Positions 51,988 to 52,436 of a stretch of DNA of 64,000 nt are shown one piece after another. Source of the DNA: Candidatus Poribacteria bacterium (lineage in GTDB: Bacteria > Abyssobacteria > SURF-5); contig JACRIR010000135.1 of assembly GCA_016215705.1 (NCBI GenBank), forward strand, positions 1-64,000. Direction: 5' to 3'. Below the pieces are notes generated by a model. It had not been told where the DNA came from, searched no databases, and saw only the letters and a list, made by a program, of their open reading frames with translations. Each line of letters opens with the position of its first letter. Positions within the stretch are counted from its first letter, which is position 1. Position numbers and translations under genes: made by a program.

Positions 51988-52118
51988 AGGAAGGGGGAAC
52001 AAGCGGAGAAAGGGTCGAAAGGGGAAAAGGGGCAAAAGAGAGCCGAGAGGAACAAACTAAAGCGGCAGTTTCGGGTCACAGGAATTTGGAAACCCACTAC
52101 CGAGAAAAGGGGCGGAAT

Positions 52119-52436
52119 ATGCAAGAACCACTGCGTGTGCCTCCGAGTGAGGCTCGAGGGAAGGTCAAATCAGGCGACGCGCTGCTCGTATGCGCATACT
52201 CAGACGCGGAGATGTTCAAGAGCATGCATTTGGAGGGCGCGATCTCGCTCCAGGAGTTCGAGTCGAAAGTGGCTGCGTTGCCGAAGACCCAGGAAATCGT
52301 CTTCTACTGCGCTTGACCCAATGAGCGCAGTGCCGCCGGTCAGGCGGCAAAGTATCTCGAAAAAGGATACACTAATGCAAAGGCTCTCGGCGGCGGTGTC
52401 GAAGCGTGGAGGAAGGCGGGTTTTCCGCTCGTCTAG
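52119..52436 (+). CDS. Rhodanese-domain protein with in-frame UGA (candidate selenoprotein)
   Basis: A 105-residue single rhodanese domain if the UGA at 52314-52316 (codon 66) is read as selenocysteine. Before it: DALLVCAYSDAEMFKSMHLEGAISLQEFE, the N-terminal rhodanese half with a HLEGA motif, ending IVFYCA. After it, in the same frame: PNERSAAGQAAKYLEKGYTN, then ALGGGVEAWRKAGFP, the standard rhodanese end, and TAG. Relatives in this subgroup typically have YCxCPxE, so UGA occupies a cysteine position in the active loop. The coding frame is undamaged on both sides, and a SECIS-like hairpin follows. ATG chosen with AAAAGGGGCGG upstream. Convergent with the sugar dehydrogenase, 11 bases apart. 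Confidence 0.82.
52331..52349 (+). promoter_or_regulatory. SECIS-like hairpin downstream of UGA
   Basis: TGCCGCC, loop GGTCA, GGCGGCA: a perfect 7-bp stem and 5-base loop inside the coding sequence, with 21 bases between the UGA and the loop. The E. coli fdhF element has a GGUC in its apical loop at 18 bases. No selA, selB, selC or selD lies in this window. Confidence 0.75.

Follow-up and report, generated by a model that had tools for sequence, protein, structure and literature searches.

A gene for a small rhodanese-domain protein occupies positions 52119–52436 of the + strand of the window (i.e., the whole 64,000-nt stretch of DNA that was analyzed). The gene has 105 codons, with an in-frame TGA at codon 66 (52314–52316) that is predicted to encode selenocysteine (Sec). 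The features of the locus are as follows:

52104–52111, + strand: predicted purine-rich, RBS-like stretch 5′ of the ATG, read directly from the sequence.
52119–52436, + strand: rhodanese-domain gene for a predicted selenoprotein, 105 aa plus TAG (PF00581; NF041203, 61 bits; TGA at the same codon in homologues).
52308–52310, + strand: Cys64 (TGC), at the canonical catalytic Cys position of the rhodanese loop (aligned to Y-C in the solved structures 3o3w and 6mxv).
52314–52316, + strand: in-frame TGA, codon 66, predicted Sec, in the motif Y-C-A-U-P-N-E (paralogue and homologues share the TGA codon; Cys, i.e., CxC, in G225, a genome without SelA).
52331–52349, + strand: bSECIS-type hairpin with a 7-bp stem, loop GGUCA, and 21 nt from TGA to loop (covariation among 15 homologues; published bSECIS model).

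The ATG at 52119 is preceded by the RBS-like sequence aaaagggg. An earlier, sequence-only reading described an otherwise intact 105-codon rhodanese frame that contains a TGA and ends in TAG. This can be read directly: past TGA66, the frame is open through to the TAG at 52434–52436, giving the read-through protein MQEPLRV...EIVFYCAUPNERSAAGQAAKYLEKGYTNAKALGGGVEAWRKAGFPLV*. The read-through protein matches the Pfam Rhodanese family, PF00581, over residues 16–99 (E = 1.6e-9; 38.6 bits, above the gathering cut-off of 22.2), with the TGA inside the matched span, and the part 3′ of TGA66 completes the rhodanese domain, to GGxxAW. The same reading anticipated a truncated annotation of 65 residues. 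That length is correct for translation from ATG to TGA, but the mechanical ORF begins at an upstream TTG and has 76 residues; standard annotation would probably cut the gene short. A single-sequence structure prediction for the protein (pLDDT 54.5) was too poor for use.

Cys64 aligns with the conserved Cys that follows Tyr in the catalytic loop of the solved rhodaneses 3o3w and 6mxv, a position that we take, from knowledge of the rhodanese family, to be that of the catalytic Cys. Residue 66 therefore lies two residues past the canonical catalytic Cys, and the two would form a Cys-x-Sec pair. The proposal that codon 66 encodes Sec is retained, given the hairpin, the homologues, and the machinery described below, with the qualification that the canonical Cys64 is kept and Sec is found at the +2 position.

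The hairpin starts 14 nt past TGA66. Its stem consists of seven Watson-Crick pairs (52331–52337 with 52343–52349) enclosing the loop GGTCA (52338–52342), and the stem length, loop sequence, and 21-base distance from TGA to loop that had previously been described are exact. The fold energy of the 52 nt 3′ of UGA66 is −18.7 kcal/mol. A published model of bSECIS elements sets limits of 3–9 nt for the loop, 4–16 bp for the stem, and 16–37 nt for the distance from the UGA, with a G within loop positions 1–2 and an MFE of at most −7.5 (PMC13188914). The window hairpin, with a 5-nt loop, 7 bp, and 21 nt, falls within every limit of this model. The two strands of the window together contain 2109 TGA triplets, of which only 3 are followed at this spacing by a comparable hairpin, i.e., one with 7 or more perfectly paired stem positions and GG or GT in the loop, and a GGTC loop is found in this one only. 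A search with Rfam gave nothing at the gathering threshold in the window, and nothing relevant near the hairpin.

Conservation of the hairpin had been proposed as a check on the Sec reading, and the hairpin is indeed kept, with compensatory changes, across 15 homologues. In an ungapped alignment of these sequences, pairing in the stem holds for 83.8% of cells, and 17 cells have changes on both sides of a pair. None of 500 shuffles attained the observed value for pairing or for both-side changes, and sliding the partner by 1–3 columns lowered pairing to 28–53%. Alignment column pairs 20–34 and 21–33 show CG/GC and CG/UA/GC exchanges, respectively. The two outer stem pairs are absent in about half of the 15 sequences; hence, the conserved core of the stem is 5 bp.

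A search of 145 genomes identified TGA-interrupted homologues in the source genome itself (a paralogue on another contig, 70% identical, with its TGA at the same codon), in G001 (two genes), in G002, which belongs to the same family as the source genome, and in distant families. Searching 386 genomes with the NF041203 model yielded further homologues. The codon of U66 is TGA in the paralogue, both G001 genes, G002, G139, G086, G099, G125, and G149, and also in G172, G176, G277, G287, G354, G363, and G365. Scanning genome contigs with the protein gave six loci, with 29–59% identity. The CxU homologues can be read through, with the frame conserved on either side of the TGA. Most relatives have a CxU loop, with UxU, UxC (G096), and CxC (G225) also represented. 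Exchange between Cys and Sec at codon 66, another check that had been suggested, was found: where the homologues have TGA, G225, a genome without SelA, has the Cys form FCTCPSEA (CxC), the one clear case of such a replacement.

The source genome is an incomplete draft of 5.47 Mb in 270 contigs, and is 92% complete. All of the Sec machinery, a search for which had been proposed as a check, is present: tRNA-Sec (68 bits; ARAGORN also calls a tRNA-SeC, anticodon tca), SelB (371 bits), SelA (485 bits), which adjoins SelB, and SelD (391 bits). The SelD gene (L070:1798-3057, − strand) is itself a selenoprotein gene by sequence, with an in-frame TGA in GGUACK, the usual Sec position in SelD. Across the genomes checked for SelA, it was found in 20 of the 21 with a TGA-type rhodanese, G074 being the exception. 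By contrast, it was found in 3 of the 15 with ordinary rhodaneses only, considering strong matches, or 4 of the 15 if a 24-bit match is counted (Fisher p of 4e-6 and 2e-5, respectively; the genomes were picked from search-hit lists, share ancestry, and are non-independent, such that the p-values are a guide only).

Taken singly, a lone in-frame stop in an intact frame looks the same whether it is a recoded codon, a nonsense mutation in a dead gene, or a base-calling mistake in a normal one, and the source is an incomplete assembly in many contigs. A pseudogene or sequencing error is nonetheless very improbable, since the paralogue, a distinct gene, and homologues from many independent genomes all have TGA at this codon, and the sequence flanking it is under coding constraint on both sides. 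In the closest pairs, differences 3′ of the TGA number 3, 6, and 19 at the three codon positions, in order, between the window gene and the paralogue, and 8, 7, and 23 between the window gene and that of G002. Because the differences fall mainly at third codon positions, they indicate that the downstream half is under protein-level selection; decay of this half, which had been named as a possible refutation, is ruled out by the same bias. UGA is normally a stop codon in bacteria, and partial termination is expected at a Sec UGA. Functional termination at UGA66, with a 65-residue product and a 3′ part that is a separate or untranslated element, would be in keeping with this usage. We give this explanation equally little credence, because the 3′ frame is conserved with a third-position bias, completes the rhodanese domain, and includes a hairpin that covaries.

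Read-through with insertion of a residue other than Sec, by near-cognate suppression or reassignment of UGA, would equally give an in-frame TGA with downstream conservation. Moreover, G074 has TGA-containing genes, and SelA and SelB were not found in its 97%-complete assembly. This lack is likely due to an assembly gap or missing contig, since tRNA-Sec is present and the congener G344 has SelA. Insertion of another residue is the least credible explanation of all, given the full Sec machinery in the source genome, the strong co-occurrence with SelA, the alternation of the position with Cys, and the retention of a bSECIS-type hairpin with a G-rich loop. Based on the conservation, the covariation of the hairpin, and the presence of the machinery, we conclude that the window gene almost certainly encodes a small rhodanese in which UGA66 is recoded as Sec via SelB and the hairpin, with a Cys64-Ala65-Sec66 loop.

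Some of the relatives have two in-frame TGAs (UxU; L064:2193-2492, L065:2030-2338, L066:1827-2144, L067:2005-2307, and L102), with the motifs YUTUPGE, YUTUPSE, YUSUPAE, and YUSUAGD. In these genes, the UGAs are one codon apart, occupying the canonical Cys position and that of the residue at +2, and a single hairpin is located 21 nt past the second UGA. Two TGAs are also seen in G344 (G344:C33:2025-2339), and G074 has two UxU rhodaneses together with tRNA-Sec (L065, L067, L080). The UxC rhodanese of G096 (L075; G096:C1:1508355-1508573) has the motif YUTCPHH, which puts Sec where the canonical Cys would be. UxU is absent from the rhodanese forms tabulated in PMC13188914, and literature searches on UxU rhodanese and LYCAU returned nothing specific. 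We lean toward the view that there is a wider set of proteins with CxC, CxU, UxC, or UxU loops, in which Sec replaces either or both members of a two-chalcogen pair, and that UxU with one hairpin would be an undescribed double-Sec active site.

In the proposed mechanism, hairpin-bound SelB would bring Sec-tRNA-Sec to UGA66, yielding the 105-residue selenoprotein. Cys64 would pick up a sulfane sulfur or be oxidized, as in other rhodaneses, and the Sec66 selenolate would act as the resolving or transfer residue, via a mixed Se-S bond or a persulfide relay. Alternatively, Cys64 and Sec66 may act as a redox couple. We infer that Sec66 is catalytic and that the protein would be a fast sulfur-transfer or thiol-redox enzyme. 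The gene's neighbors encode a radical SAM protein, UDG, a GSDH-type dehydrogenase, and HSP20; gene neighborhoods differ among the window gene and its homologues and do not point to a substrate. The protein is small, single-domain, and probably cytoplasmic, and has no lipoprotein-type N-terminus. By eye, lipoprotein-like N-termini were seen in the paralogue (L059, G000:C250:62249, FAFGCAT) and in relatives in the same family (L060, G001:C140:20539, FISACAT; L062, G002:C20:56956, FGGCAT). GMC-oxidoreductase-like genes, also recognized by eye, are convergent with L059 and L060. Since the paralogue and these relatives have such N-termini and the window copy does not, the lineage appears to hold a cytoplasmic and an envelope-anchored seleno-rhodanese.

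The window gene adds a well-supported selenoprotein, with two copies in the source genome, to a sparsely sequenced lineage, and comparing the CxC, CxU, and UxU forms offers a natural way of testing the contribution of Sec to rhodanese chemistry. As stated in the sequence-only reading, seleno-rhodaneses have been reported from environmental surveys, the earliest records being from the Sargasso Sea and GOS surveys. The best NCBIfam match of the window protein is NF041203 (rhodanese_LYCAU, "rhodanese-related (seleno)protein"; 61.2 bits, 7e-17), with which it shares a rhodanese domain, the Y-C-x-U motif (FYCAUPNE), and Sec at +2 from the canonical Cys. However, the best stretch covers residues 37–104 only, and we do not call the protein an NF041203 equivalog because its score is under the curated cut-off of 115 bits. 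Members above the cut-off were found in only 4 of the 386 genomes searched, which marks the clade of the window gene as a divergent branch; the curated model misses this branch, and such genes will therefore usually be annotated as truncated. Rhodanese-like form 3 (CxU) is listed as a selenoprotein (PMC13188914), and the sequence features place the window gene as a divergent member of these already catalogued CxU seleno-rhodaneses (form 3, NF041203). Forms 1, 2, and 4 are likewise seleno-rhodaneses (PF00581), but have UxxS or UxxG motifs (PMC13188914), in which Sec probably takes the place of the canonical catalytic Cys, whereas the window protein keeps this Cys and has Sec at +2. The single-domain thiosulfate sulfurtransferases GlpE and PspE resemble the window protein in domain size, fold family, and position of the catalytic loop; unlike the window protein, which scores 29 bits against the GlpE model (cut-off, 102), they have one catalytic Cys and no Sec.
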